Assembly (NCBI RefSeq): GCF_030867145.1 | Contig: NC_134440.1 | Location: 9,796,001-9,860,000, forward strand | Direction of reading: 5' to 3' | Origin: Opisthocomus hoazin | Lineage: Eukaryota; Chordata; Aves; Opisthocomiformes; Opisthocomidae | DNA length: 64,000 bases | Shown: positions 1 through 20,208 of the stretch, one piece after another | Position numbering within the stretch: position 1 is the stretch's first letter | How the letters are laid out: each line of letters opens with the position of its first letter | The notes under the pieces: generated by a model | Told to the model about the DNA's origin: nothing | The model's input: only the letters and a program-made list of their open reading frames with translations | Database searches by the model: none | Made by a program: the position numbers and the translations under genes

Positions 1-68
1 GCACACCAAGGTAGTGGGCTGATCGCGGCACCGCCGGCGCTGGGCTCCCGGCTCACCACACGCGGGCT

Positions 69-3000
69 TTATCGTATCCTGGTGAAGAGGTTGAGGACGG
101 ATACAGACTCCTGCCAGGAAAAGGCAAAGCAGGGGCTGAGCACTCCATAGCTGCGCTGCGGCGTCACGCCACCTGCTTCGGGGTTTGGTTTTTTAATAAA
201 CCAGCTGCCGATCCGGTGAGGTACCTCCAGCTCTGGGCACGACCCGAGCTCACCGTTCAAAGCCCAACACCATCAGTATTCCCACGGGCTTTTTCCAGGC
301 GGTAACAAGGAGCACGGCAGGCAAGTGTGCCGTTCCCCCGGCCTCGTGGGGAGCTGTACCCCAGAGCTGCCAGAGACCGGGGACGCCGGCAGCGAGCAGC
401 ACCCGCTCCCCACAGCTCACTCCAGGATCTCCCTGCCACCTCCGCCAGACACCCAGCCCAGCTCTCGGCGCAGCTGGCACCACCCGCTCTCGGTGACGGC
501 GAGCTGTCAGCAGCAGCACCCACGATCCCACTCCCACCCAAGCCCCCATCTGAGGCCGTTTCACAGGGAGCCAGGGGACAACGCTCTCGGAGCGGGTCAG
601 CTCCCAGCAGCACCCTTGCAGGGAGGAGGGTGGGCGCAGGATGGGCTCCCCGAAACGCTGCTACGCTCAGCAGCCCTCGAGCAGCCAGGAGAAGGCCGTT
701 CCGTCGCACTGCCTTGAGCACACAGGGGCAGGCTTTTCTTTCACCTGATGACTACAGATCTCTTCATGTCTCAGCAAAGTACAACCCTGCACCGCATCCA
801 GCCCTCGACCCGCAGCGTGTGGTGAAGGGACCAGAGCCAAGGCAGCAGAGCAGCGCAGACTTGGCCCGAACTCGCCCCCGGGCCGAGCCTGCTGCAGGAC
901 ACAGCCGCAGCCACCCCCGCACGCACCCTTACCTTCGTCGAGCGAGTTTTACTGAAGACGTTCCAGAAGCGCAAGGTCTCATCTCCAGCTCCTGTAACGA
1001 TGGCCTCCCCATCAGGGGACATTGCCTACGGCCAAGAGAGAGCAACCTTTAGCAGCTGTTACATTTTTGAGGTTGAAAACAAACCTTCACTGGAATACGA
1101 GAGAGATTTAACTCTCCTTCCTACCTGGCTAGCGGTGAGAAACCACAGAACTACCTCTGCTTTCCTCTGCCTCGCTCAGTCTCCGTAGGTGCCAATTTGA
1201 GCACTCGCATCTTACTTAGGCAGCCATGGAACACAGGGGTGAAATTCTCATAAAAAGGATTCTGGTGTTCAGAATCCAAGGCAGCTGTAATTAAGGCTGT
1301 TCCTCCCCGGATGATAAAGAGGTGTGAGGGCAGGAAGTGTGACACGACTGCATGCGCCAGCTCTGGCAGTCACCTGCACCGGAATCCAGCCCACAAAACC
1401 GAAGCTGCACATTTATCACCTCTGTCACGACTCCGCCGAAAGCCCCACGTACCAGCGACAAAGCAGGCACAGGGTCAGCGTGGATTAACTGCACCAAGTA
1501 CTGTAATGATGAACGAGGAGGACTGAAAGCCTCAAACCCTTCGCCTGCTGGCAGTCCCCAGCGAAAACGTGTACAAGTCTCCAGGGAAGGAGGAGAGACG
1601 CCTGTGCTTCCTCAGCAGAGTTTTGGCAGGCTTTGCTCTTCGCTAAGAAAGCCTCACGTTTCCATAGCAGCAAACCAAAGCATCCCTTGCAGGCAAGGAA
1701 ACCAGATACAGGCGTTTTCCTTCGCTTGCAGGGCAGCATTCGTAGCTCCAGCCCGGCTGCCGGCAGCTCCGGCGCCACCGGCACTGCGGCTTCGGCCTCA
1801 CCCCGCACGCGCGCAGCCGACACGCAGCTACAGAAGCCTGCAGAGACACGGCCGTCGCTTACCAGATACAAGACTCGGTACGAGTGCCCCGTTAGCTTTG
1901 CCACTTGAGTTAGCGAGGGGTATTTCCAGACGAGGATCTGGTTCTGCGAGTATCCGTGGGTACTCACCTGGAAGGGGAGAGGAAAATTCGCGTCACGCTT
2001 CCTGACAGCCGACGGCGCAGCGGCCGCACCGCACCGCGAGGAACTCACGAGCTCGTTGGCGTGTTTCGACCAGGCCAGGTTGCACACTTGCGACCCGGTG
2101 TCGATGCACTGCAGAGGCTGCCCGGTGAGCGTGTTCCAGAAGCGTATGCAGCGGTCGGCTGTCCCACCGCCGGAGGCGAGCAGTCCGTGCTGGTGCGGAG
2201 ACCAGGCGATAGCTTTTACTGCTGCAAGATGCTCTGTGTACTGTTGGACAGGACTCAGGCTGCAGTGATTCCAGACAAGGAGCTGGCAGAGAGGAGAGAC
2301 GTGATGGAACCTGCACTGCTGTCGCGTGTCTGCAACACCCACAAGCCACGACGCTGCGCTGGGACGGAGGAGGGCAGGTGGGCACCAAAGTGATTTCCCA
2401 CAGCTCTGCCCCAGCACACGCATCCCCACCCTGCAGCCAGGCCCACCCTGACGCCGCCCCCCACGCCCTGCCCAGAGCCGTTCGGCTGCGGGGCCACAAG
2501 GCAGCGAACGGTCCTCAGGCTGACGGAGCCAAAGACAGAGCGTCACTGAACATGAACTCAAACCCTTCTCTTGCCCCGACAGCTGCATTACTCCAGAGCA
2601 CGTTTAGAAACGGGCTCGAGTTCCTCAGAAGTTATTCTGAGCAGGAGGAACTCCGCACAGCCACACTGTCACACGGACACCGGGCACATTCACCACCTTG
2701 CAGCCTGCTCCCAGGGGCTCCCAGCACTGCTTCTCCACAACAGCTGCTGCTTCCGTACGGCGCTCAGCCAACTCCACGCCTGCGTTCCAGGTGTCAGAAC
2801 CTCTATAGCTCTAAACTCCGTTTCCTTCTGCATACATAAACACCACTGCAACAAACCTGACCACAGGCTACCTAAACAAAATCAGGAAGCACAGCTTAGC
2901 AGCAGCTTTGTTGAACTCAAACCCCTGAGTCAAGCTATAGATTTAATTAGCCAAGTGCAGGAGCAAAATTAAATTTGCCTTTTTAATTTTATTAGGGAGA

Positions 3001-6000
3001 GGAGACCGAGTAGAAGCTTCGCATGATTTATGTTTGGACGCAGTCCAACGACCGAAACAAAAGCCCCTTTCGGAGGGCCAAATATCCCTAAAGAGAGGGG
3101 GTCTGACAATTCTTGGTGAAGACCTAGCGACACTGAGCCCCGTGGACTCCTTGGCAGGACCATACCTTATTATCATTTCCTCCAGAGGCCAGGAGCTGGT
3201 GGTCCGTAGACCACTTGAGCCCGCAGACCTCCTGCCTGTGGCCCTGGAGCCGCCGCTCGGACTGCAGGGGGGGGGTGCGGATGTCCCGCTGCAGGATCAT
3301 CCTGTCCCGGCTCCCAGAAGACAGCTGGTCCGCGTTCCACGCCAAGGCACCTGCAACGCGGGCAGAGCGTCAGGGTGTGCTGCGGGAGGCCTGGGAGCGG
3401 GCAGGCAGCACCCAGCCACCACAGCTGCCAAGGATTTAAAAAAATAATTCAAAAAACATCTGTGCTTATGGACCTGCCTTCTATCCACTGTCTGAAGTCC
3501 TAGCACAGCGTGCAAAGACAGATTAGCCTGCACAAGCTTACTGAAGGTATCACTAATCCCATTTCACAGTGCAGTACAGCACAGAAGGAAAACTCGGAGG
3601 GTGCCCTGACTTCCCAAATCTCACTCCAGCGTTCAGATCGCTGCGGAGCAACAAAACCAGTCCCGGCAGAAGAAGGGAACTGGAAATCTCAGTGTCAAGC
3701 AGCCTGCCGGCAGGGCTGAAACCGGAAGCCAGTGGCAGTGACACAAGATGTTGCAACCAAACCTAAAATGCCTCAGACATGGAGGAAACACCTGCTGCAA
3801 CACTCAACCACCACCACACCCGAGATCAGAGCTCCACAATTACTCGACGATAACGCTTTGAAGACGGCTCGAGACATAGCAGGGGATAAATCTCAATCCT
3901 GGCACCTTCCGAGTTCTGCTATTTCACACAGATCCCTTGCTTCAAGGAAAAAGTTCAGTCATGAAGAAAGGAAACCTGCGAAACCTCGGCCTCCCGCCTC
4001 CTTACCGACTCGGGCTGTGTGCCCCTCGAGCATTGAGAGCTTTTTCCCAGCAGCCGCATCCCAGATCTGTACAAAGCCCTTGTGCGTGCCCACGGCTACC
4101 AAGTTCCCCTGGACAAACAGCAAACCATGGTCAGTAAAGCCAGTAAGTACAGACAGACGTAAACCAAAAGCTAGGAGCTGAGGAGAAGACTTGAGATAAA
4201 TCCCACACGATGGAAAGCATCCAGAGTTCTTCCATCTTTTCCCTACCGAGAGGGCCAAGGAGCCTGGCTGGAATATATTTACTGTAACTTTTTATTGTCA
4301 AGAGAAGTGAGCCGGCTCTTTCTCCCTCCCACGGCTCTCAGCAGATGCCTCGAGAACCTCGAGATACAGGAGGCTGCTCTCGGTCCCCTCTCATTTAGCA
4401 GAGGAAAACGGTGCAGACAGGAAGACGCATTTGATTTGCGACGCATACAGGGAGTTTGGGGAAATACAGGACAATACCCCAAGTTCAAAGCTGTGAGGAA
4501 GAGCTACACGGCTACGACGGCAGTGTCTACGCTACGAGGGTGTGAGCTGCCACCACTGCCAGCGTTATACTGACCCGTTCCGACCAGCCCACGGATGTCA
4601 CAGAATCTCCTTCCACGGAGAGATCACACAGTCTGGTTACCTTGAAAGCGGGACAGAAGGGAACAAGAAACACTTGTTATTGCCACACTACGCTCTCCGC
4701 TGTCTCACAGACCAGGACCTAGTTTGGGACAGAGCATTACAAGCGCTGAATCCCTCAGACAGCGCGTTCCATAGCTCTGAAAGATGCTATGGCTGGAAAA
4801 GAACTACGGCAAGGGCGACTCCACTCTCCAGACACTGACCTGGCTAGTACAAGCGCTCCACAGGTAAACACAAGTCCCAAGGCCAACACTGAGGACGTTA
4901 AGAGAGGACCAGTCCACCAGGTTCAGGTAGAAGTCGTCCTGCAGCTCTGGGGCATCCAGCACTTTGAAAGGAATCTTTGAGATCTTCCGAGTTGGTTTTC
5001 GAGGTGATCTTAGCAGCTTCTGACTGTTTACAAAAACAGATGCACAAACCGCTACAGGACCTTACCCCGCTGCCGATGGTGGGTGCAGATGTAGCCGCTC
5101 TTTAAAGCGCACTTGTGTTTCTGTAGGAATGCACAGACAGAGGCCGAAAAATTCCTTCCAGCTGGTACGACTGGAAGGAATTACGTTCTGCTCCTGTAAA
5201 GGAGCTGGGGAGCAAACAGGTAAACCGAGCGCTGACAGCTGACCGAGGCACGTTCAGTATCTGGGCAGGCTGGGCGCCGGCAGAAGTTCTTAGACCTTGA
5301 CGGTCCCTGCTCACCATCTCCCCACGTTTCCAACAGCAATTCAGACAGCAATTTTGGGTGCCTTAGCAAGAAGCCCCAGAGAGCCTCACTGAATCCTCTG
5401 CCCCAGCCCGTCCCTTCTCGCAGCCTGTGGAGAATCAGTGATACCTTTTGTTGCTGACAGGAGACAGGGAGTACGGCGAGACCTCGTTACCATCATCTGG
5501 ACTGGAGCGCTTTGTGCTCAGTGAATACTGCACGAAGAAAACACACCTGGTAAGAACGCCAGCACGCCCAGACTCCAGAGCATCCCTCCAACGCGCGCTG
5601 GTGCCCAGTGCCTAGCTAACTCCAACACCCACAGTCAGATTTTCCAGACTTTTCAATCGCTCCCTCTCCCAGGTGCTCTGGAACCACACAGCAAAATCCT
5701 GACCTCCACTCAAGTCCAAAAGCTCGATGTGGTCGCTTATCACTGTCCAGAAAAGCCTGGTTCCAGCTCGGCTTCCCCGCCAGTACAGAAACAGGAAGCA
5801 CGCAGCTTGCTGCAGAGACTTCTGCTCTCTTTACAGGCCACCAAATTTTGTTACCAGCAGCTTATCTTGGTCAAGCCACAACACTACCTCCCTTGCACCA
5901 GCAGCGTGGCAGAGCCGTGTGCTGTGTTCCTGCGACGCACACGTGCAGCCTCCACTGGTTTTAACGCAACGTAACCGACTCACAGTGAAGAGAGACTTCT

Positions 6001-8030
6001 TCTCCGGGTTGGACGGCTGCAGCCTCCTGTCTTCTGTCTGCGGGTCTTGCACCTTCTCGATCCCTGCTCCTAAGAGCTCGTTCTTCAGCAAGGCAGAGTA
6101 AGCAAGGCCATCTGTGAACCCAAACGAGCGCTTAGGCACAGGACTCGGAAGCAGCAGGCAGCTCTGCAGGGAGTGGCAGGACGACATCTGCCTGGCTCGC
6201 ACGTTCCCAGGGCCTCTTCATAAGCCTGGGGCCCCAGTTTGGAATCAACATGAGCAGCAAGCTTCCCCTCTTTCACCCCACCAGGAAAGTGCTTCTACGG
6301 TACAATAAATCAAGGGATACAAATAGCCTCTCGCTTCCCAGGCCTCGTCAGCAGCCCACTGAGGTGACCCGGTATTCACCCTCGTGATGGGGGCATTTCC
6401 TAACACACCAGCACGAGTTTTTGCATAAGCACGAAGGAAATAAAAGCTCCAGGCGCAGTGCAAGTGGTAGAAAGGAGGTCTCACCTTTGCCATTGTCCGA
6501 TGTCGCATCCTTTGCTTTTCTGTTTTGACTTGGTGATTTTTCATTTTCCTGAAAGGGAGACAGGCGCTATCACCACACAGAAACCTCAGGATATACGGTG
6601 AACTAACAAACAAAGAAGTCTCCTAGACCACAGGGGCAATGCGTTCAGAGGAACTCTTCTGGGGCAGCAGAAGACAAGCAGAGCAATTACGCAGGCAAAA
6701 TAATATGCACCATTTCCTTAGCTGCGAGACTGAGCTGCAGGAGCTAAACCTACATTTATTCTGTGGAAGTTGATGCTCCAGTTGGCCCCAGCTCTTGAGG
6801 GAATGAATCTGTCACCGTGCTTACTAGGAGAAGACATCGGAGAATTGGAAGGTGTCAGGGTTCTTCTCATCTCTGCTACCTGAATTAAAGAAGAGGAGAC
6901 ACACACAAGAATAAGTGTGGATTACAGCAGGGGTCTGAAAAACATCAGCGAGGCCTTGTCAAAGCTCAATATGCCCAAGTAGAAGAGCCAAGCATTAGTT
7001 TGTCCCCGTCACAGAACCAGTAAGCATGTTAGAGTCCCCCTGTCAGGGGAACTTCTGTCAGAAGCAGCAATTAAACATCCTCTTTCCCTCCGCTCCTTCT
7101 CCAGCTGACGTTGTCGAGGGAAACACGTGGCAGGCTGGAGCGGGGCAGACTGCTTGCAGGGTGAGCAGCAGATGCCGCAACTGCAGTCACATTCTTTTTC
7201 ATACAATAATTTATGTCAGAAGGGACGCCAGCTCTGAACAGGGCTAATTTCACAGCTACACTGAAGGCCACAGCGGCACCCAATTGAGTTTTCAGCGTCT
7301 CCGAGGACACCGACCCCACAAGCTCCCTGCTGCAGTGTTTGGACGCCCTCAGTGCGAACACCTTCTCCCAGTACCTAACTGGAATTCCCCCTGCTGCAGC
7401 TTGTGTCTGTTGCCTCTAATCCTTCCACTGTGTACCTCTGAGGAGAGTCAGACCCTATTTTGTCCATACCACCCACCACGCAGTTGAAAGCTACCACCTG
7501 ATCCCTCCTGAGCCTCAGCTTCTCCAGGCTGAGCAACACAGTCTCGGCATCGTCCTGCGCCAGCCCCCTGACCATCCTGGGGGCCTCCATTGGACTGGCT
7601 CTGTCTTGTCAAGCCCCACAGTTGGTCTGTTTGTTTGTTAGCCCCCAGTGTTTGATGTTCCCCATGTACTTACTGAGGTTATTCAGTAAAGAGGCATCAC
7701 TGAGCTACATAAAAATATCTTAACTCCTTTTTGCGACGTGAACTGAGTTTATACATTCAAACGCTTCGCTGAAGTCAAGTCGTTGGGTTATTCCTAGAAC
7801 AGCTCAGGGGCTCACACCTGCTCACAGCCCAACAAGAGACTACGCTTCGCGTCAGAGAGGTCACACATCTTTCAAAAGCTCAAGTGAAAACAGTCAGAGG
7901 CAAGACAGACAGCCACTGAATAGTCAGACTAAGCCCATTTAGCACAGCCCGTCGTACTTACACCAGGCATTGTGTTTTCATGCTGTATGTTGATTTGGCG
8001 CAGGAGACGTCTCTCGTAATCCTGGTCCAT
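69..8030 (-). CDS. FZR1: FZR1 (CDH1), APC/C activator, complete coding region in 13 exons
   Basis: FZR1 is the WD40 co-activator that recruits substrates to the anaphase-promoting complex in late mitosis and G1. Coding exons, read on the minus strand, are 8030-7962, 6879-6754, 6548-6485, 6111-5984, 5527-5445, 5023-4840, 4640-4575, 4108-4006, 3350-3166, 2282-2049, 1967-1863, 1025-933 and 110-69. Every junction is GT-AG, phases agree, and the total is 1482 nt, or 493 residues plus stop. The start reads [12 protein letters not shown]. The C-box DRFIPSR falls at residues 46-52, an S-P site at residue 40, seven WD repeats fill roughly residues 180-475, and the protein ends in the Ile-Arg tail that docks on the APC/C. 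The protein is almost identical to the human one as I know it. The last exon gives the form lacking the Val-Lys-Trp insertion. The 3' UTR runs off the left edge of the window. Confidence 0.97.
7355..7800 (-). mobile_element. Old CR1 LINE fragment in FZR1 intron 1
   Basis: Read on the plus strand this is the reverse complement of the CR1 3' half. Recognisable CR1 phrases include the CTTCTCCAGGCTGAGCAACA block near 7520 and, near 7770, GCTTCGCTGAAGTCAAGT. The copy is much diverged and internally shortened compared with the CR1 copies at 13.4 and 16.3 kb, so it is older. Edges are approximate. Confidence 0.6.
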
Positions 8031-8107
8031 GGCGGAAAGCAGAGGGGCTGGGGACTTCGGCAGGCTCAGGAATTTATGTTCACCAAGTCCAGCCAGTAAT
8101 CAGTCTG
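8031..8107 (-). other. FZR1: FZR1 5' UTR part of the first coding exon
   Basis: Immediately upstream of the FZR1 start codon, the minus strand shows a pyrimidine-rich tract followed by two adjacent CAG acceptors (AG ending at 8108 or 8105). The exon therefore begins near 8107 or 8104 and carries about 75 bases of leader before the ATG at 8030. Which acceptor is used cannot be told from sequence. Confidence 0.6.
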
Positions 8108-11100
8108 CTGCAACAGAGAGGGGAAGGAAAACACCAAAACGTCGCACCCCCTCGTACAGAAGCAGCCCTTCAGAATCGTGTCAGCCTGTCACCACTTTTC
8201 CTACCCAGAGCACTGGTGCCAAACTTGCGTGACACAGCCCAGCGCAGGGCTGCTGATCAAAGTGGTTTTCTGTATTATTTCCCTTGGCTGCTGAGTCACG
8301 TGAGCAGGCGACCGGCGACTCGTGTCTGGCGGGACCTCAGCCGGAGCCGAGACTGCGGCACTGGAAACCCGCCGGCTGTCACGCACGGCAGCAGCACAGC
8401 CTGGCAAGCTGTCCGCACTCCGGCATGGACAAACCAGACAGCACCAGCCCGCCCCACCGCAGCCAGAGCCACGCGGACAGCAGCGCGCACCGCTGCGCTG
8501 GGGCTGGCTGGGACACCCTTCGCCGTGCTGGAGGTACTGCAGACGTCCAGGCCACGCGCTGCAGGAACGCGGGCAGCTACGGACCAGGCAGGCCCCGGGC
8601 CAGCAGCCAGCGCCCGATGCCCACGCTGCCCCAGGTATTCCTCCTGGCCAGCACAACGCTAGCTCACTGACGGCTACACAGGCTGCAAGCAATGTCCAGC
8701 ATCTTGCAAGCATACGCTCTAGGACAGGGCTGCTTCAGAGCCCAGATGTGGCTGGCTGAATGACAGCGTGCATCGATTAAAAGAAAAAAAAATCAGCTAA
8801 CACTCCTGCGAGGATAGGTAGTCCCAGCCCTTCTCTGGGCTCTGGAGGGCGCAGACCAGCAGCGTTAGGGCCCAGCCCATCTCCAGCTCACACCCCCCCG
8901 CCTCGGGCTTTGCCCTCAGCTCACACGGACACGACGACGCCGACGCCAGAAGAGACGTGCCAAGGTGCTCCTTCACCCACGACAAACATCTCCAGAGGGA
9001 AAGGTGCGCTCTGACACACACCCGCCACAGCCAAAGATCCCCACAGCACACAGGCCTCTGGACGCTGTGCAGAGCACAGAGGGATTTTCATCTGCTGTTA
9101 TTGTACAAACCTTTACGGCCCCTGGCCGGAGTCCCAGCTACACAAACCCGGGAGCTGCCCCGAGACACAAACTCGCGGCAGCATCGGGAGGCAGCTGCAC
9201 GGGAGCGGCTGTGCGGGGCGAAGGCTGTCCAGGGACACGCTGCACCGCCACGCGATGGCCCTGCCCCGGAGCGCCGGCAGCGTCCTCCGCCGCCGGTGAG
9301 GTTCCCTGGGAAGAGGTTCACCAAGAACACCCAGGGTTTATCATCAAACACGGGAGGCAAGGCACCAGGCGCAGAGGGGCACAGCAGCACACGCTGTCAT
9401 CCAGCCGGATGAGATGAAGTATTACAGTATTCTGCAGAAAGCACACCAGCTCTGGGCTACCGTGACGCACCAGCCAGCAGAGCCACTCTCCTTTCATCCA
9501 AGCCGTTTGTTAGTACTGAGCCTTGGACTTCTGACAAACGCCGAAACGCAGAGGCCTGCTCGTCCTCGCCATTAAGCATGGCAGCACTTCCGCAGGAGCT
9601 CCCCTGAAACAGCGAGTGCCAAGCTGTCTCCGAGTATACCTGCTCACCTCCGCCACCTCCTCCCCCAAGCCTTTTGCTTTTTTCATTTCATACATTTCTC
9701 CAATATGTTCTTTCGGAGGCAACACTGGAGAACGCTACCAAACTGAAGAGTAATCAGCTTCCACCAAATGAAGTGAAGACTCAGAGCTGGCCTTACTGCG
9801 AGTGAAAAGTCAGGCAAGCCTGTAAGGTTATTATCGAAGGAGGTTAAAATAAAATAGTAAGTGCATCCCGTGTCAAACGCTCTCCCTCATTTTGTCGGTT
9901 ACTCCACTACCCTCACCTACCCATGATCTTCCAAATCTGCCTTTGAGGTTAACAGGAGCTCTCAAAATGAGCACTTCAGTACAATGCCCCCCCTTCTTTT
10001 TTTCATTCCCCCGGTTGTTTCACCACCACGGATAAGGGAGATCAGCTTGCAGACCCCACGCGAGGAGCGTGCTCAGCTGGGAAACACCACGCGTTGGAAG
10101 CGTCCTCCCAGCACGGCTCAGCGCAGTATTCGTGAGCGATCCAGATCCAGTTACACCGCACCGTGACATTTTTAATTCTGGATATGAAACACATTCGCTT
10201 TTAAAGCTTTTCATTTGAGTTCCTGTCTGTACAAATTTCGACTACAACTTCTAATGAGAAATACAGCGCACACAGAGCGAATAGCAGCAGAGACTGCGTA
10301 GGCAGAACATGGCAGTAATACCAATCAGCCCCAAACAGCCTCTTCTCAGGCTTCAGATGCTTCAGAATAAAGCACCACCATGACATGAATTGTATTTGAA
10401 TTGCCAAGTCATCCTCTGCCCCTTTGGCCCTGTCTAAATTTGCAAATATATTCCTTTGTTACCTTTAAGAGTTCTCCTGCCTTTGGTATTCTCCGAGTCT
10501 CTCACTTTCAGCAGCACCTCTCACGTTCAACACTTACCCACCCAACCACCTTCCAGTGTTAAGGAGCACACAAACGATTTCTGGAAGCAAAACGGGCCAG
10601 GGATTGCCCGGCTGCTGCTCTGCTCAGGTTGGCCACGGCCGGAACTGACAGAGCCGACACGGCCTACATCTGCTGCCCCAACTTCAAAACTCGCCGAGAA
10701 ATCCAACCAGGCAGAGGCTGCCTCTCAAACCACGGGGACTCACCCAGGAGCAGAGGAGGCACAGGAGGAAGGCTGCTGTGTGCATTTTGTAACCTTGTAC
10801 AGAACCTTCAGGGATTTTGTTTTTTTTGCTTGGCTCTTGTGGGAATTCATATGCTCTGTCTGAGCACGACAGTTTTTCACAGAGCTACCAACTTTACTAA
10901 CATCTCGTTTCCCTTTACAGAATACAAAAATTCACGGAATACGGTTGTCTGATTACCTTACATCTCCAAACAGCTCAGAGCGCCAGCTCAGATAAAAGGT
11001 CTGCTTTCTCGGAAGCCTTATCTGAAGTCAGCGCACTAAAAGCCAAGATGAAAAATTCACCACCAGCCTCGTCCACGGAGCTTTACCGGAAAGGCCCGGC

Positions 11101-12098
11101 AACTCGAAAGCCTGCTTCACCGTAACACTGAAGCTACTGAAGGTGCAGCCGTACCTCTGGTCAACGCACAAAAGCAAGTCATGGAATTTAGAGAACGCAG
11201 CAGCTTCAGCCAACAGCCCCAGAAAATTCTGCTACTGTGTTAAAAATAATAATAATAAAATAAATATCGGTCTTTAACGCGAGATGGTGTTGCCGGCAGC
11301 GCGTGAAGAACCTTCGGCACAAACCAGCAGGCTAACTCGGTAAGGGTCAGCACTTCGCAGGAGAGCGAGCGCGGGGCCGCCGAGAGCGCCGCGAGTCAAG
11401 GACAAAAGCATCACCCACGCAAGGAGGGCTGCGACCCCGGGGGCAGAGGCTCCCGCGACCTGGCAGACCCCTCCACGGCCCCCCGGCAGAGCCAGCGCGG
11501 GATGCCCGGGGCGGGCTCCTGAGCCCCGCAGCCCCGCAAAGCCGCCGATCGCCGGTGCCGGGGGCCGTCGCGGTGCGTCACCCCCGACGGCGGGCCCGGC
11601 GGCTTGGAGCCCCTCGGGCCCCAGAGCCACGGGGGGGAACGGCGACCCCCAGCCCGGGGCCCGCACACCAGCGACCCCGGGAAGCTCCCCGCGCCGCCCG
11701 GAAGCCCTCCCCGCCGCTCCCCTGCCCGGTTCGGTCACCAGGCCAGGCACTGCTGCAGCCCCGGGGGCGGGGGCGGCACCGCCGGACGGGGCTCGCAGCC
11801 GCTACGGCCGGTCCCGGGGCCCAGGCGCAGGGCGGCGGCCGGCAGGGCCGGCCGGGGCGGGGGAGCGGCGGCACAGGCCCACCCGCGGCCCCCGCCCCGC
11901 CGGCCCCAGCGCGGACACCGCGCAGCGCCGCGACCCCAAGGCAGCCGGTAGCGACCGGGCCCCGCCCGGCCCGGCAGAGGCCTGGGCACCGGCCGCGCAG
12001 GCCCCGCCGCACCGGGGGCCCCGCAGCCCCGGGGGAAGGGGCCGCGGCCCACCGCAGCCCGCCCCGCAGCACCGGCGCGGCCCCGCCGCCCGCCCTAC
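8104..12098 (-). other. FZR1 intron 1, otherwise featureless
   Basis: This roughly 4 kb intron separates the non-coding exon from the coding start. I see no exon-like open frame with good splice sites in it. The part from about 11.3 kb onward is CpG-rich and belongs to the promoter island. An AT-rich stretch occurs near 11.24 kb. Short open frames on both strands here look like chance. Confidence 0.4.
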
Positions 12099-12180
12099 CT
12101 GCCCGCCCGGCGCGGCCCGGCCCCGCTCCGCCTCCGCCTGTCACTCTCCGCCGGCCCCACCGCTCCGCAATATGGCGGCC
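12099..12180 (-). other. FZR1: FZR1 non-coding exon 1 (predicted)
   Basis: In the CpG-rich region a good minus-strand donor (AG followed by GTAGGG) ends an exon at 12099. A YY1-type element at 12168-12179 lies near the likely transcription start, as is common in housekeeping promoters. This would splice over about 4 kb to the leader in front of the coding start at 8030. The exon is inferred from the donor and the promoter context; its 5' end is approximate. Confidence 0.5.
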
Positions 12181-12700
12181 GCCCCTGCCCGCTGGCCCCG
12201 CCCCCCGTTCGAATCAACACAGAAGCGGCGGCGCGCGGCGCCATGGCAACGGCCGCGGCCCGCCCCGGGTGGGTGGGGCGGAGCCTGACACCGCCCCTCA
12301 GCGCGCTGACGTCACGGCGCTGAGGGCCTTCCGGGGGAGGGGAGGGGGACACGGGACATGGCGGCCGCGCTCCCCGCAGCCCCTCCCGGCGCGCCCCGGC
12401 TGCAACGCGCCGGTCCCCGCGTAGCCCCCGCGCCCCCCCGCCCCGGGGCTCGAACGCGCGGGCGTCGGCCGGGAGCGGCGGGCCCGGCCCATCCCGTCCC
12501 GCCCCGGCCCCGCCCCCGGCGCCGTCGTGACCCCACCGCGCCCCCGCCGTGACCCCGCCGTGACCCTGCCGTGACCCCGCCGTGACCCCGCCGCTGCCGA
12601 TCGCTTCCGGGGCGGCCCCGGCTCCCGGTTTGAAAATGCGGGAGCGGCTGCTGGTGCTGCTGTGCGCGCTGGCGCGGCGGCGGGCGGGCGGGCGGCGGCC
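12160..12700. promoter_or_regulatory. Bidirectional CpG-island promoter between FZR1 and the Harbinger-derived gene
   Basis: About 500 bases of CpG-rich DNA lie between the predicted FZR1 first exon (minus strand) and the ATG at 12701 (plus strand). It contains a perfect CRE, TGACGTCA, at 12307-12314 and a perfect YY1-type element, CAATATGGCGGC, at 12168-12179, with no TATA box. Head-to-head genes at this distance usually share one divergent promoter. The sites are seen directly; shared control is inferred. Confidence 0.65.
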
Positions 12701-15700
12701 ATGGCTGGCACCGGCGGCGGTGGGGCCTGGGACGGGCCGCAGCGGCGAGCCTGGCTCCAGCACTACTACAGCCAGCGGCAGAAGCGGCTGATGACGGTGA
12801 CCGGGGGCGGGCGGGGGCGGGGAGGACGCAAAGCAGGCGGGACGTGGGGCACGAAGGACACGGGGGGGGGGGGGCGCACCCAAATGGGGAGGGGGTGGAG
12901 GGGGGGCACAGCTCGCAGGGACACATGGGGGGGCGGGGCAGACACGAACCGCAGGGGCGGGAAGGATGGGGGCACAAAGGACACGGGGGACACGAAGGAT
13001 ATGGGACACGAACGCAGATCCAAAGGACAGGGGATACAGAGGGTTGGGGGGTGACATCAAAGGGGGGGACACAAGGGGGGGGACACACGGGGGAGGGGAC
13101 ACAGAGGGCCTGGGGACACGCGGCAGCAAGGACAGGCTGTCAGGGGAGAGCGTGGGGAGGCCGTGTCCCTGGGCAGTGGCCGGGGGCGGCACAAAAAGCC
13201 TCTTTTCAGCTTAAAGATGGTATTTAGAATTTACTGACAAATGAACTGGAGGGGCCGGGGCGTCGTGCCCGCTCCCCCTGCCGATCACGCCCACCCCGCA
13301 GCTCACTCGTTAAAAAATCATCCCAAGTGGCCACCCCGGAAGGGGACTTTTTACGAAAGGCTCCTCAGCTGCAGCCCCGGGGCTCTGTTCTGGGCCACAC
13401 TCGCAGCATCGCACGATCGCTACGGTGGGAAAGGACCTCTGAGACCATCCAGTCCAGCCGTCACCCCAGCACCCCCAGGCCTGCTGAACCATGTCCCCAA
13501 GTGCCACGTCCACGCGGTGTTTGAACCCCTCCAGGGATGGGGACTCCCCCACTGCCCTGGGCAGCCTGGGCCAACGCCTGACCACTCTTGCAGGAAAGAA
13601 ATTGTTCCTGATATCCCATCTAAACCTCCCCTGCTGCACCTTGAGGCCATTGCCTCTCGTCCTGTCGCCGGTTACCTGGGAGAAGACCCCAGCCCCCCTC
13701 ACTCCCCCCTCCTGGCAGGGAGCTGCAGAGAGCGAGAAGGTCTCCCCTCAGCCTCCTCTTCTCCAGCCTGAGCAGCCCCAGCTCCCTCAGCTGCTCCCCA
13801 TCAGACTGGTTCTCCAGCCCCCTCCCCAGCCTCGCTGCCCTGCTCTGGACACGCTCCAGCCCCTCCATGTCCTGCTTGTGGTGAGGGGCCCAAAGCTGAG
13901 CACAGGACCCGAGGTGTGGCCTCACCAGTGCCCAGCACAGGGGCAGGATCGCTGCCCTGGTCCTGCTGGCCACACCATTCCTGATCCAAGCCAGGATGCC
14001 GCTGGCCTTCTTGGCCACCCGGGCACACTGCTGGCTCATGGGCAGCCGGCTCTCGACCAGCACCCCCAGGGCCTTTTCCGCCGGGCAGCTCTCCGGCCTC
14101 TCTGCCCCAAGGCTGGAGCGTTGCATGGGGTTGTGGTGACCCAGGTGCAGGACCCAGCACTCGGCCTTGTTGAACCTCACACAGTTGGCCTCGGCCCATC
14201 GATCCAGCCTGCGCAGATCCCTCTGCAGAGCCTTCCCACCCTCGAGCAGATCGACCCTGCTGCCCACCTTGGTGCCATCTGCAGACTGACCGAGGGAGCA
14301 CTCGATCCCCTCATCCAGTTCATTGATAAAGATGTTAAACACGACTGGCCCCAACACTGAGCCCTGGGGAACACCGCTCGTGACGGCCGCCAGCCGGATT
14401 TAGCTCCGTTCACCACCGCTCCCTGGGCTCGGCCATCCGGCCGGTTCTTTACCCAGCGAAGGGCACCCCAGTGCCCAGCCGTGGGCAGCCCGTTTCTCCG
14501 GGAGGGTGCTGCGGGGAGCGGTGTCCGAGTCCCTGACAAGCACACACAGCGGTCGCCTGGTGGGGTTGCAGCGGGGTTTCCCAGGACCAGGAATGTTTGA
14601 CCGGGCGGTAGTGCCCGTCGGGACGTCCTCCCTGCCCTGAGGCGGTCGCTGGAGCCAGAGGGTCTTCGGGGCAGGGGGTCCCCGCGAAGCGCGGGGCGGG
14701 GGCTGGGGGAGCGCTGTCTCATGCTGCTCTTGTCTCTCCGCCGTGCTGCAGCTCCTGGTCGCGCGCCGCAGGAGAACCAGCTGCTACTTCTACCCCCGCG
14801 CCTGGCCCAGCCTCAGGAGCGCGGACTGGTGGGAGCGCGTCGTGCTGAAGGAGTTCGGGCCCCGGGACTGGCTGGAGAAGTTCCGGATGTCCAAGGAGAC
14901 CTTCTTCTACGTCTGCAACCGGCTGCGGCCCGGGCTGGCTCCGCACAGCGCCCACTTCCACCCCACCCTGCCCCTGGAGAAGAGGGTGGCCGTGGCCCTG
15001 TGGCACTTGGCCACCAACGTGGAGTACCAGACTCTGAGCCCGCTCGTGGGCGTGGGGCCCTCCACGGTGCAGACGTGCGTCCGGGAGGTGAGCTACGCCA
15101 TCGTCTTGCTGCTGAAGCCCCTCTACCTCCGGGCGCCCAGCGAGAAGGAGCTGGAGAACATGGTGCGCATCTTCCGCACGCGCTGGGGCTTCCCGCACTG
15201 CATCGGCGCCCTGGACAGCCTGCACATCGCCATCCACCCGCCCCTGCGCCTCAGTGCCGACTACTGCAACGGCCAGGGCTGGCACTCCGTCCTGACGCAG
15301 GCCACCGTGGACGGCCTGGGCCAGTTCTGGGACGTCTGCACCGCCTTCCCCGGCAGCATGGAGAACAGCGCGGTCCTGGAGAGCTCCAGCCTGTGGGTGC
15401 TGGCCAAGGAGGGCCGGCTCTGCCCCAACCCTCCCAAGCACTTCATGGGGAAGGCGCAGAAGTACGTGCTGCTGGGCGATGCCACCTACCCCTTGCAAGA
15501 CTGGATCCTCAAGCCCTACCAGGAGGACCAGCAGCTCAGCCAGCGGCAGCTGCAGTTCAACTACCGCCTGAAGCGGGCGCACAGCGTGATCGAGAACGCG
15601 TTCCTGCGCCTGAAGGCGCGCTGGCAGATCCTCCTCAAGTGCGACGACTGCAGCCTGGAGCTGCTGCCCACCCTCGTCCTCGCCTGCTGCATCCTGCACA

Positions 15701-15870
15701 ACGTCTGCGAAGCCCACGACGACCCCTTCAACGAGGAGTGGCTGGAGGGCGCCGAGCCCACCGAGCTGCCCAAGCCCTGCCAGCCCGCGCCCGCCGCCAT
15801 GGAGGACGGCCGGGCCGAGCAGGTGCGCGAGCTGATGTGCCAGTACTTCGAGAGCTGCGGGGAGGGCTGA
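12701..15870 (+). CDS. PIF/Harbinger transposase-derived protein (HARBI1/ALP1-like), two exons
   Basis: Exon 1 (12701-12796) starts at an ATG in strong context (GCGGCCATGG) and encodes 32 residues ending in a basic segment, RQKRLMT. Exon 2 (14752-15870) encodes 372 residues, giving 404 in all. Both sides of the intron are phase 0 with GT-AG ends. Exon 2 holds a helix-turn-helix-like segment ([15 protein letters not shown]) and the Harbinger DDE nuclease fold. Asp187 lies in [12 protein letters not shown], Asp275 in LLGDATYPL and Glu313 in [16 protein letters not shown], with 37 residues between the last two, so all catalytic residues are kept. The distal CILHNVC motif is also typical. Related vertebrate HARBI1 is about 349 residues. 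No terminal inverted repeats or Harbinger-style TWA duplications were seen, and the frame has no break, which points to a domesticated host gene, as HARBI1 is. Function is unknown; lost or retained nuclease activity cannot be told. Confidence 0.85.
12840..13120. repeat. G-rich GGGGACACA-type simple repeat in the intron of the Harbinger-derived gene
   Basis: The stretch repeats short variants of GGGGACACGGGGG and GGACACGAAGGA with runs of G of 5 to 10. It is low-complexity and diverged, with no fixed period. Several G runs close together could form G-quadruplexes in the plus-strand transcript. Confidence 0.6.
13400..14545 (-). mobile_element. CR1 LINE, 3' half, inverted in the intron of the Harbinger-derived gene
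   Basis: On the minus strand this is a 5'-truncated CR1 with the C-terminal end of the reverse transcriptase and the 3' tail. An open frame at 14357-13620 reads through the segments [31 protein letters not shown] and [13 protein letters not shown], which are CR1 hallmarks. The catalytic-motif relative of FADDTK reads SADGTK here. The 3' end lies near 13400, where the plus strand shows the GGACCTCTGAGACCATCCAG block. It is 5'-truncated, as most CR1 copies are. Intronic position and opposite orientation mean it does not disturb the host reading frame. Confidence 0.9.
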
Positions 15871-16340
15871 CGGGGCCGGTGTGGAGACGCAGCGCTGCAC
15901 GCCCTTGGCTCGAGGACGGCCCGCGGACTCCGGCAAGCGTTGGGTCAGCGGCGCCGGGCCGTTGGGCGAAGGACTGGACCCCTGCGATGGCGGCTCCCGG
16001 GGCGGGGAGGGGGCGGCCGCGTCGCGCTGGTTTGGCGGCGGTGGTTGGAGGCAGCGCAATGTATTCTGTGCCCGTGCTCTCTGCCCGGCTCTGAGCGGTC
16101 TGGTGGTGTGGGGTGAGCGACGCGGGGGTCAGCGCTGGCCGAGGGGGCCGGGGGTCCCTTTCTGGGGAGTGCGCCCCTGCCCGAGGCCCCTCCGCCGGGC
16201 CAGAACTGGGGGGGGGGGGGGGCTGGAAGAGAGGTGGCGAAGCCCCTTGGCGGGTGCAGAACCAGTGACGTGACCGGGCTGGGGAGGGAGGGGGGAGGCC
16301 CAGCCGGGACCCGCGGGGACCCTGCGGCTGGGTAGCTGAG
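15871..16340 (+). other. Presumed 3' UTR and spacer after the Harbinger-derived gene
   Basis: This GC-rich stretch follows the stop codon at 15868-15870 and ends at the next CR1 copy. I found no canonical AATAAA in it. A G homopolymer of about 14 lies near 16210. The 3' end of the transcript may lie in or beyond the CR1 copy. Confidence 0.4.
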
Positions 16341-17505
16341 GGGAGAGCCATGGATGTTGTCTACCCCGACTTCAGCAAGGCTTTGGACACAGTCTGCCAT
16401 CACATCCTCCTAGGGAAGCTCAGGCAGCGTGGGCTGGATGAGTGGTCGGTGAGGTGGGTTGAGAACTGGCTGAAGGGCAGAGCCCAGAGGGTTGGCATCA
16501 GCGGCGCTGAGTCTGGTTGGAGGCCGGTAACCAGTGGTGTGCCCAGGGGTCAGTACTGGGCCCAGTCTTGTTCAGCTTCTTCATCAGTGACCAGGATGAA
16601 GAGTTAGAGTGCACCCTCAGCACGTTTGCTGATGACACCAAACTGGGAGGTGTGGTAGACACACGGGCAGGCTGTGCTGCCATCCAGCGTGACCTGGACA
16701 GGCTGGAGAGTTGGGCAGAGAGGAACCTGATGAGATTCAACCAGGGCAAGGGCAGGGTCCTGCACCTGGGGAGGAACAACCCCAGGCACCAGTACAGGCT
16801 TGGGGCTGAGCTGCTGGGAGCAGCTCTGCGGAGAGGGACTGGGAGTGCTGGGGGACGACAGGGTGACCGTGAGCCAGCAGCGTGCCCTGGGTGCCAAGAA
16901 GGCCAAGGGGATCCTGGGGTGCATGAGGAGGAGTGTGGGCAGCAGGGCGAGGGAGGGTCTCCTTCCCCTCTGCTCTGCCCTGGGGAGGCCCCATCTGCAG
17001 TGCTGTGTCCAGTGCTGGGCTCCCCAGTTCAAGAAAGATGAGGAGCTACTGGAGAGAGTCCAGCGCAGGGCTGCGAGGATGAGGAGGGGACTGGAGCATC
17101 TCTCCTGCGAGGAGAGGCTGAGGGAGCTGGGCTTGTTCAGCCTGGAGAAGAGAAGGCTGAGAGGGGACCTTAGAAATGCCTCTAAATATCTGCAGGGTGG
17201 GGGTCAGGAGGACGGGGCCAGACTCTGTTCAGTGGTGCCCAGCGACAGGACAAGGGGCAACGGGCACAAACTGGAGCAGAGGAAGCTCCAGCTGAACCCG
17301 AGGAAGAACTTCTTCCCTCTGAGGGTGCCGGAGCCCTGGCCCAGGCTGCCCAGGGAGGCTGTGGAGTCTCCTTCTCTGGGGATATTCCAGCCCCGCCTGG
17401 ACGCGGTGCTGTGCAGCTGCTCTGGGTGACCCTGCTTGGGCAGGGGGTGGCACTGGGGGACCCCAAAGGGCCCTGCCGACCCCGGCCATGCTGGGATTCT
17501 GTGAG
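16340..17505 (+). mobile_element. CR1 LINE, 3' half, plus strand
   Basis: This CR1 copy starts at the block encoding DVVYPDFSKALDTVCHHILL and continues through [13 protein letters not shown] (a reverse transcriptase catalytic segment), [18 protein letters not shown] and RRLRGDLRNASKYLQGG. It ends at 17505 with the single CR1 3' terminal motif GATTCTGTGAG. The coding part changes frame at least twice (pieces at 16350-16607, 16517-17041 and 16800-17429), so it is inactive, but it is well conserved and therefore relatively young. It lies between the Harbinger-derived gene and the DOHH promoter. Confidence 0.93.
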
Positions 17506-17689
17506 CGGGCCGAGCGCCCCACGGTCCGGTGACACCCCCCCTCCCCCTGGAGGGGTCCGCCGCGGGGGTCCGTCCTCCCCGGGTCCCTGCGGCCAGCTGA
17601 GCCGGGGGCCCAGCAGCCAGGTTCGCCCCGGGGCCGGGCAGGGACTCCCGGCGGCCCCGGCCCCGCCGCCCCGCGCTGCCCGGAGCCAC

Positions 17690-17898
17690 CCCGGGGCCGC
17701 AGGGGGGCGCCATCAGCAGGCGCTCCGCCGCCATCGCGCATGCGCCGCGCTGGCCCCGCCCCCGGCCGCTCCCACTCGGCGGGTGCAGGGGGGAAGGGCG
17801 GCACCCGCCACGTGAGCGGGCTCGGGGAGCCCCCACCCGGAAGCGCATGGGAGGAGCCGGCGGCGCGGTCACGTGAGCGAGCAGCATGGCGGCGGGCG
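17690..17898 (+). promoter_or_regulatory. DOHH: DOHH promoter and non-coding exon 1
   Basis: A CpG-rich TATA-less region holds a perfect NRF1 site, CGCGCATGCGCC, at 17735-17746, two CACGTG E-boxes at 17809-17814 and 17870-17875 (both followed by AGCG), and an ETS site CCGGAAG at 17838-17844. A non-coding exon ends at 17898 before a GTGAGT donor and joins the acceptor before 18168. The exon contains an ATG at 17886 that, after splicing, reads only six codons and stops before the main start, so it is a small upstream ORF. NRF1 and USF/MYC-type sites fit a housekeeping gene tied to growth and translation; that link is inferred. Confidence 0.65.
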
Positions 17899-18221
17899 GT
17901 GAGTGCAGGCCCCGGGCCGGGGCCTTCCCCGCTGCCCCCCGGCCCGGCCCTGCCCGGCGGCTTCGGCTGGCGCGGGGGCGCCGGGTGGGCCCCGGGGGTC
18001 CGGGTGGGTCCCGGGGCTCCGCTCACGCCGGCTCCGGACGCTTCCCGTGGGCTGAAGCCCGGCCGCGGGGTGCGGCTGTGCTCGGCCCACGGCTCCGGGC
18101 GCCCCGTTCTCCCCCGCGGTGCGGCCCCCGACCCCCCTGACCCCCCCGCCCGCCTCCCCCTGCGCAGGAGCTTGACCGAGCGAGCCCCGCCGGAGCCTGC
18201 ATGGGACCGGGCCACGCCGCC

Positions 18222-20208
18222 ATGGTGACAGAGGAGGAGGTGGCCGCCGTCGGGCGGACGTTGGTGGACGCGGCCCAGCCCCTGCCCGCCCGCTTCCGGG
18301 CCCTCTTCACGCTGCGCAACCTCGGCGGCGACGCGGCCGTGGCCTGGATCGCTCGGGCCTTTGAGGACGGCTCCGCGCTGCTGAAGCACGAGCTGGCCTA
18401 CTGCCTGGGCCAGATGCGGGCCGCGGTCGCCGTCCCGCTGCTGACACGCGTGCTGCAGGATGCCGGCCAGGAGCCCATGGTCAGGCACGAGGCCGGTACG
18501 GCAGTGGTGGGGCCTGGCCCGGTGTGGCTGTCGCGGCTGGGAAACCCCTGGGGCGTGTGACCACCGCGTCCTGTCCCTGGGCCGCAGCGGCTGGCCGAGC
18601 CTTCGCACCCTGCCACGGTGCGTGGCGCGGCTGTCGCAGTCGGGGCGAGGCTTGGCCGGAGGGCGCGGCAGGGTCCTCCTCGCGTAGACAGCTCGATCGC
18701 ACCCTGCCGTGTCCTTCCCTCAGGTGAAGCGCTGGGTGCGATCGGGAGCCTTGAGGTGCTGGACGTCCTCAAGCGGCATTGCGAGGATCCCGTGGTGGAG
18801 GTGAGGCCCTGGGGGGGTCGGGTCCCCTGGGGCGCGGTGCTGCGGGTCCTGGGGGTGCGGTGGGGCTCTCCTGGGCAGCCCCGGCCGCGGACGGGGACAC
18901 GGTGAGGGGCGTCTCGCTGCGTGCGGGTGCCCAGCTGCTGTCGGGCAGCCTTGGGCGCCTGCCCAGTGCTGTAGGATGCCATCGCGCAGCCCGGGCTGTG
19001 TCCCCGTCCCCGCAGGTGGCAGAGACGTGCCAGCTGGCAGTGAGGAGGCTGGAGTGGCTGCAGGAGCACAGGGACGAGCCGGGCGCCAGCCCCTACCACT
19101 CCATCGACCCCGCCCCGCCGGCCGAGGAGACGGACGTTGCCAAGCTCCGCGAGACCCTCCTGGACGAGTCCCGCACGCTGTTCGACCGCTACAGGGCCAT
19201 GTTTGCCCTGCGAAACCTGGGGGGCCGCGACGCCGTGCTGGCGCTGGCGGACGGTAAGGGCCGGCGTGGGGCTGCCCGCCGTCTCCTCGCTGGGGGTCTG
19301 CGCTTGTCAAGCCCTCTGCAACGTTGGCTTGCAACCAGCCAGCCTGGCCTGGCGTCTGCTGGTATCTCCTGGCTCCCCTGTCCTGGAAAATCGGAGGCTG
19401 CCGACCTTGTCCCGTGGTTTGGGATAGCTCTGCAGAGGGGCGTGGGTGTCCTGAGTGGGGAAGGGGCAGAGCGTGGCCCGGGACCCATCTGGATGCGATC
19501 CCTGGCCCGAGGAAGCGGACGCGGCTCTCCAGCCATCCCGGCTGAGCCGAGGGCGTGCCGGCACCGGGAGACGAGGCGTGCGGGGGCCTGCGAGCCGTTC
19601 GGTCCCGCAGCACCGCGGGGCTGGAGGCGGTGGCTGTGCTGCCAGTCCGCCCCGAGCCCGTGGCAGCGCCAGCTCCCGGGGCAGGCGAGGGTGCCGGCAG
19701 CTCTGCCGGGAAGGCGGGTGCCGCTGCCGCAGCGCGCGGGCTCGGGGAGCAGGGTGGGACAGCCCTTCCCGCGGGTGGCTTGTCCCCTTCCCCGAAAGCC
19801 CCCGCCATGGGTCTGGAGCGGCTCTGACCCCCAGGCCAGCCTGCCCCTCGCTGCCCCCGGCGTTGGGCTCACTCTCGCCTCCTCCCCGCAGGGCTGCGCG
19901 CCGGCAGTGCGCTCCTCCGCCACGAGATCGGCTACGTGCTGGGCCAGATGCAGGATGAGGCCTGCGTGCCGCAGCTGACGGCCGCGCTGCGGAGCCGCAC
20001 CGAGAGCCCCATGGTGCGTCACGAGTGCGCCGAGGCCCTGGGCTCCATCGCCCACCCCTCCTGCCTGGAGACCCTGCGCGCCTTCGCCCGCGACGAGGAG
20101 CGGGTGGTGCGGGAGAGCTGCGAGGTGGCCCTGGACATGTATGAGTACGAGCGCGGCGCCCAGTTCCAGTACGCCGACGGGCTCTGCAAGCTGCAGGCCC
20201 CTGCCTGA
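18222..20208 (+). CDS. DOHH: DOHH, deoxyhypusine hydroxylase, complete
   Basis: DOHH performs the second step of hypusine formation on eIF5A, hydroxylating deoxyhypusine with a di-iron centre held by HEAT-like repeats in the cytosol. Coding exons are 18222-18495, 18724-18800, 19016-19253 and 19892-20208, total 906 nt, or 301 residues (human 302). The four metal-binding His-Glu pairs are all present, at H56/E57 ([12 protein letters not shown]), H89/E90 (MVRHEAG), H207/E208 ([12 protein letters not shown]) and H240/E241 ([11 protein letters not shown]). The start was placed at the second in-frame ATG (18222, context GCCGCCATGG) because it matches the family N-terminus MVTE; the ATG at 18201 would add seven residues. 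A non-coding exon precedes at about 17.85-17.9 kb. Splice phases agree throughout. Confidence 0.97.

Follow-up and report, generated by a model that had tools for sequence, protein, structure and literature searches.

A putative domesticated PIF/Harbinger transposase gene adjacent to FZR1 in the genome of Opisthocomus hoazin

Gene organization of the FZR1 locus

The sequence analyzed here is a stretch of 64,000 nucleotides of the Opisthocomus hoazin genome (hereinafter, the window; C27:9796001-9860000), which was examined against the assembly of 1.48 Gb in 415 contigs. One end of the window is occupied by the gene for FZR1, an activator of APC/C, which we located by a tblastn search with a human FZR1 probe followed by exon joining and a splice check; the coding region (69..8030, minus strand, coding start at 8030) comprises 13 coding exons with a total of 1482 nt including the stop codon. 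Head to head with FZR1 lies a predicted two-exon gene for a protein of 404 residues, henceforth denoted the FZR1-side gene. Exon 1 (12701..12796, plus strand; 32 codons, start codon context GCGGCCATGG) and exon 2 (14752..15870, plus strand; 372 codons and the stop) flank a GT..AG intron in phase 0 (12797..14751) that was predicted from the sequence. The donor (ACG|GTGACC) and the acceptor (GCTGCAG|CTC) of this intron are identical in all three genomic copies of the gene, which are described below.

The 5' ends of the two genes are separated by a CpG-rich stretch (11500..13000) that, judging from its composition, is a candidate two-way promoter: the 500-base windows starting at 11500, 12000 and 12500 have a GC content of 0.84, 0.84 and 0.77, and a CpG observed/expected ratio of 0.85, 0.96 and 0.86, respectively. 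The 5' exon of the FZR1-side gene lies within this stretch, so that transcription of the gene probably starts from there; a candidate splice donor of a non-coding first exon of FZR1 was recognized by eye at about 12097-12099 on the minus strand. Downstream of the FZR1-side gene, the plus strand contains coding pieces (18222..20205) that we take to represent DOHH and that, with the open reading frames of the window itself as probes, had a single occurrence in the 190 kb read. On the plus strand of the intervening sequence (window 15871-18230), none of the 12 poly-A-signal-like hexamers tried is present.

The locus also includes repeats that we assign to CR1. One fragment resides inside the predicted intron (13430..14390, minus strand) and is present in all three copies; another follows the gene (16350..17520, plus strand), and the repeated unit described below ends inside it, at window position 17504. 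The intron fragment is 97.9% identical over 525 bases to a CR1 at C27:9875584-9876108 and hence is not old. The attempt to date the FZR1-side gene by this insertion was accordingly abandoned, given that a young CR1 yields no useful minimum age, and the intactness of the gene is no proof of great age.

The predicted protein

The original prediction held that the locus encodes an uninterrupted Harbinger-derived protein retaining Asp187, Asp275 and Glu313. Both exons are indeed intact, and the protein aligns over the entire length of the Pfam profile DDE_Tnp_4 (E 7.6e-27, 94.3 bits, cut-off 24.8), the domain being encoded by exon 2; the three residues are at the predicted positions and align with the D, D and E of the HARBI1 protein encoded in the same genome. 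A further match was obtained with Plant_tran (PF04827; E about 5.3e-13 to 6.4e-13). The open frame as such is weak evidence because exon 2 is stop-free in three of the six frames, and the argument thus depends on the profile match. The match to the helix-turn-helix profile HTH_Tnp_4 (E 0.025, 14.6 bits, cut-off 27) is too weak to count. A basic run, RRRR, is located at residue 37.

Single-sequence structure prediction for the protein gave a mean pLDDT of 38.7, and exon 2 produced no match among solved structures. Nothing close to a cut-off was found in NCBIfam, and no relatives were confirmed in viral contigs; in prokaryote genomes, two bacterial loci match the protein, with 29% identity over residues 113-177.

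A triplicated block of FZR1 and the adjacent gene

The original prediction proposed a test for one copy of the gene per genome at the FZR1-DOHH locus. In this assembly, FZR1 and the FZR1-side gene together form a unit of ~19 kb that occurs three times within ~106 kb, one copy being inverted and the other two in tandem. Unit A (C27:9703870-9723598, inverted) and unit B (C27:9775298-9794256) lie outside the window, and unit C (C27:9794584-9813504), in tandem with B, starts 1416 bases before the window and occupies positions 1..17504 of it. The units are 98.6-99.5% identical, piece by piece. Both exons and the splice sites of the FZR1-side gene are intact in each unit; by exon DNA, the gene maps to 9708656-9708561 and 9706617-9705499 on the minus strand of C27 in A, and to 9789428-9789523 and 9791504-9792622 on the plus strand in B. 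Each copy is accompanied by a complete FZR1 gene with intact splice sites, the three FZR1 proteins being identical, with five synonymous codon differences, and an FZR1 exon probe hits three places genome-wide.

Within the 190-200 kb read, MFSD12 (identified by probe) was found once, adjoining copy A, and DOHH once, adjoining copy C. The human genome has DOHH, FZR1 and MFSD12 next to each other in this order, which suggests that copy A retains one ancestral side and copy C the other. The CR1 downstream of copy B is continued by the same sequence as lies beyond the CR1 at the FZR1 end of copy A. The tandem junction (C27:9793101-9794300) is thus a CR1-CR1 join, which points to segmental duplication rather than transposition, and has the form that unequal recombination between flanking CR1 elements would leave. 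As to the place of the exchange within the CR1, support for the FZR1-side CR1 comes from the last two bins (about 170-200 bases), and the earlier bins show no clear separation.

An assembly artefact, that is, separate haplotypes of one locus or a misjoin at CR1, would explain the triplication, although not the existence of the FZR1-side gene, which this explanation does not concern. The noncoding sequences of the FZR1 copies differ pairwise by about 0.5% (0.47, 0.49 and 0.57%), which is in the range of heterozygosity, and the junctions between copies sit in CR1 repeats, as an artefact would have it. However, a diploid locus has two haplotypes, fewer than the three distinct sequences observed; no gap separates the copies in the 200 kb read, the sole run of N being located beyond them, at C27:9863522; and the MFSD12 side is kept by copy A and the DOHH side by copy C. 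We consider an artefact unlikely, if far from negligible. Because three sequences are more than two haplotypes can supply, at least one duplication is likely to be real in the animal.

Apart from the three units, a 17.8 kb piece adjoining copy A (C27:9686256-9704043) recurs in inverted orientation at 9755880-9773672, with 99.1% identity.

Transposon hallmarks

The additional copies belong to a segmental duplication: exon 2 DNA hits three places genome-wide, all in the C27 duplication, and neither DNA nor protein searches of the genome revealed dispersed near-copies of the gene. Nor did the flanks show transposon ends beyond the level of shuffled sequences, in line with the original prediction. 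When 14392-14751 or 12798-13430 was compared with 15871-16345 in search of terminal inverted repeats, the best inverted matches (12/15 and 18/25) equalled those in shuffled sequences (11-12 and 16-19, respectively; 6 to 8 shuffles each). Among the best 25 of 73 inverted pairs, the longest are two facing CR1 elements with 70-74% complementarity, and the others are short G+C-rich arms. Outside the three copies, the 3' flank has no match. Matches of the 5' flank (14392-14751) to other places, at 80-84% (37 of the 40 scored, of 524 candidates), are confined to its initial ~140 bases, which probably are the terminal part of the CR1. A mobile element was rejected on these two grounds, inverted repeats no better than shuffles and the lack of dispersed copies; the genome does not present the picture that would have spoken against domestication, namely numerous near-identical copies elsewhere, bounded by inverted repeats and TWA duplications.

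Sequence variation among the copies

The coding sequences of the three copies of the FZR1-side gene differ at three sites. In exon 1 (2 variable sites of 96), where copies A and B are alike, T6C is synonymous and A59G results in Q20R; in exon 2 (1 of 1119), copy B has an A-to-T amino acid change. By comparison, the predicted intron varies at 22 of 1933 sites and the 3' flank at 10 of 473; for FZR1, the counts are 76 of 10589 in noncoding sequence and 5 of 1511 in the coding part, whose intervals as compared here exceed the 1482 nt of actual coding sequence by about 29 nt. The noncoding sum is 133 variable sites of 15000, with the downstream CR1 (39 of 1157) excluded; one-sided Fisher p values are 7e-4 for exon 2, 0.007 for both exons and 0.010 for FZR1 coding sequence. 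Given that exon 2 lacks synonymous differences as well, gene conversion or a low local mutation rate may explain this sameness as readily as selection, and two nonsynonymous differences to one synonymous do not show a dN/dS below 1.

The codon positions of the FZR1-side gene differ sharply in base composition (GC1, GC2 and GC3 of 0.64, 0.45 and 0.97), with GC of 0.70 and 0.75 in the non-CR1 flanks and GC3 of 0.94 in a DOHH exon and 0.65 in FZR1. The low value for FZR1 indicates that the high GC3 of the FZR1-side gene is not simply a regional equilibrium. This contrast between codon positions shows a history of coding, but gives no date for it.

Origin of the FZR1-side gene

The explanation that we favour, with a probability of roughly 0.7, is the domestication of an ALP1-like PIF/Harbinger transposase in an event independent of the one behind HARBI1, the resulting FZR1-side gene being later copied with FZR1 as a block. 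Under this scenario, a PIF/Harbinger transposase would have become a host gene, separately from HARBI1, with its 5' exon in the CpG-rich stretch common with FZR1, from which it probably is transcribed; subsequent recombination involving CR1 elements would have copied FZR1 and its neighbour as a ~19 kb block, leaving the three intact gene pairs seen in the assembly. The support for domestication includes the full DDE_Tnp_4 match, the DDE triad, the absence of dispersed copies, the intactness of all three copies, the contrast between codon positions and the deficit of variation in exon 2. The criteria given for domesticated PIF/Harbinger genes include the lack of terminal inverted repeats and of related copies (PMC9710019). 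In these respects, the gene resembles ALP1 of plants and the insect PIF-like genes DPLG, APLG, LPLG and BPLG; unlike those, it belongs to a vertebrate, and there is no Myb_DNA-bind_5 place on its contig.

If the gene were instead a Harbinger transposon of recent arrival or immobilisation, which has not become a host gene and whose frame is open for lack of time to decay, its catalytic triad would likewise be intact, and with an intron CR1 and a triplication that are both young, the locus provides no long minimum age to contradict this view. In a simulation of neutral decay, which is only illustrative given the assumed indel and CpG rates, an intact frame still had a probability of 0.28 after 1% neutral divergence and of 0.09 after 2%, and the occurrence of Harbinger elements in crocodilians, turtles and fish is reported in PMC9179366. 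A recent arrival nevertheless appears improbable, considering the lack of dispersed copies, sister elements and inverted repeats beyond the shuffle level, the predicted spliced 5' exon in the CpG-rich stretch of FZR1, the GC3 of 0.97, and the state of the related fossils on C6 and C41, which are old and broken. We regard as equally improbable a functionless relic frame that is kept open by high G+C and was copied passively with FZR1. The three open frames of exon 2 and the absence of a synonymous bias in the coding differences among copies are compatible with such a relic, whereas full-length homology with the DDE residues kept, the preservation of both splice sites in all three copies, the lower number of variable sites in exon 2 and the strong codon-position contrast argue against it.

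The search of the genome with the DDE_Tnp_4 profile yielded nine places (18 candidates scored): three on C27 with identical scores, HARBI1 on C7 and a further gene on C311, each in two exons, as well as disrupted remnants on C6 and C41. The search with the FZR1-side protein itself yielded seven (16 candidates scored), namely the three C27 copies, C311, C7 twice, and C6. The distinctness from HARBI1 that was proposed originally holds: HARBI1 is a separate gene on C7, only 22.9% identical to the FZR1-side protein over 301 aa. The FZR1-side gene shows 23-25% identity to each of HARBI1 and the C311 gene and lacks the intron at LLG|D that is common to these two, which are 39% identical to each other. 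HARBI1 and the FZR1-side gene are alike in the DDE_Tnp_4 domain and in the DDE triad at alignable places, and both are intact, HARBI1 as a single host gene but the FZR1-side gene in three copies through segmental duplication; peculiar to the latter are the 5' coding exon in the CpG-rich stretch of FZR1, an additional segment ahead of the second D, and the RRRR run. A duplicate or retrocopy of HARBI1, which the common Pfam family and the missing HARBI1 coding intron might suggest, is very unlikely and was dismissed in view of the identity values, the introns and the profile scores: identity is only 22.9%, whereas the C311 paralogue reaches 39% and has the HARBI1 intron, the FZR1-side protein contains the additional segment between the first D and the second, and Plant_tran matches it better than it does HARBI1 (E 2e-6).

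The remnants, both with stops, differ in their affinities. That on C6 (C6:70715541-70715861, minus strand) resembles the FZR1-side protein (E 1e-10) more closely than HARBI1 (E 0.002); that on C41 (L025 around 4443-5025; near C41 2419644) is a HARBI1-like transposase (E 5e-14 to HARBI1, 6e-14 to the C311 gene and 0.35 to the FZR1-side protein). These affinities indicate traces of two Harbinger lineages, with the FZR1-side gene grouping with the C6 remnant.

The C311 gene (C311:114785-116512; L023:4786-5505 and 6115-6513) is a second HARBI1-like gene, which is open and has a GC3 of 0.96. Its first Asp is replaced by G and its Glu by R; from these replacements, it is probably a HARBI1 paralogue without nuclease activity. 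Although it belongs to the same Pfam family, of the two only the FZR1-side gene keeps the first Asp and the Glu.

Potential functions and partners

By analogy with its relatives, the FZR1-side protein is most likely a nuclear, DNA-associated factor that would act with a Myb/SANT partner. With the RNase-H-like DDE nuclease core kept, it could function as a metal-dependent nuclease or, like ALP1, as an accessory subunit in chromatin. According to PMC9710019, nuclear entry of HARBI1 needs NAIF1, and in plants, ALP1 and ALP2 act together in chromatin. The RRRR run is absent from HARBI1 and thus the FZR1-side protein might reach the nucleus unaided.

In three papers, HARBI1 figures as the Harbinger-derived gene of vertebrates, one of them using the wording 'at least one' (PMC3424704, PMC5753468, PMC9710019). 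Among the matches listed from the open-access literature, none describes the FZR1-side gene, which is new with respect to these matches. The gene may be already annotated, presumably under a label such as 'ALP1-like'. It would be a long shot to view it as a second Harbinger-derived nuclease in sauropsids that is catalytically competent and transcribed from the FZR1 promoter, and whose triple co-amplification with FZR1 is preserved by selection on cell-cycle dosage. An independent DDE-keeping gene at a fixed interval would amount to a second uptake and offer a clean test of nuclease retention, and the triplication of FZR1, if confirmed by reads, would be a natural dosage experiment.

The search of the genome for Myb_DNA-bind_5 detected nine places, none of them on C27, and a Myb-like partner of the FZR1-side protein is possibly encoded at one of these; they include a gene on C19 that we take to be NAIF1.
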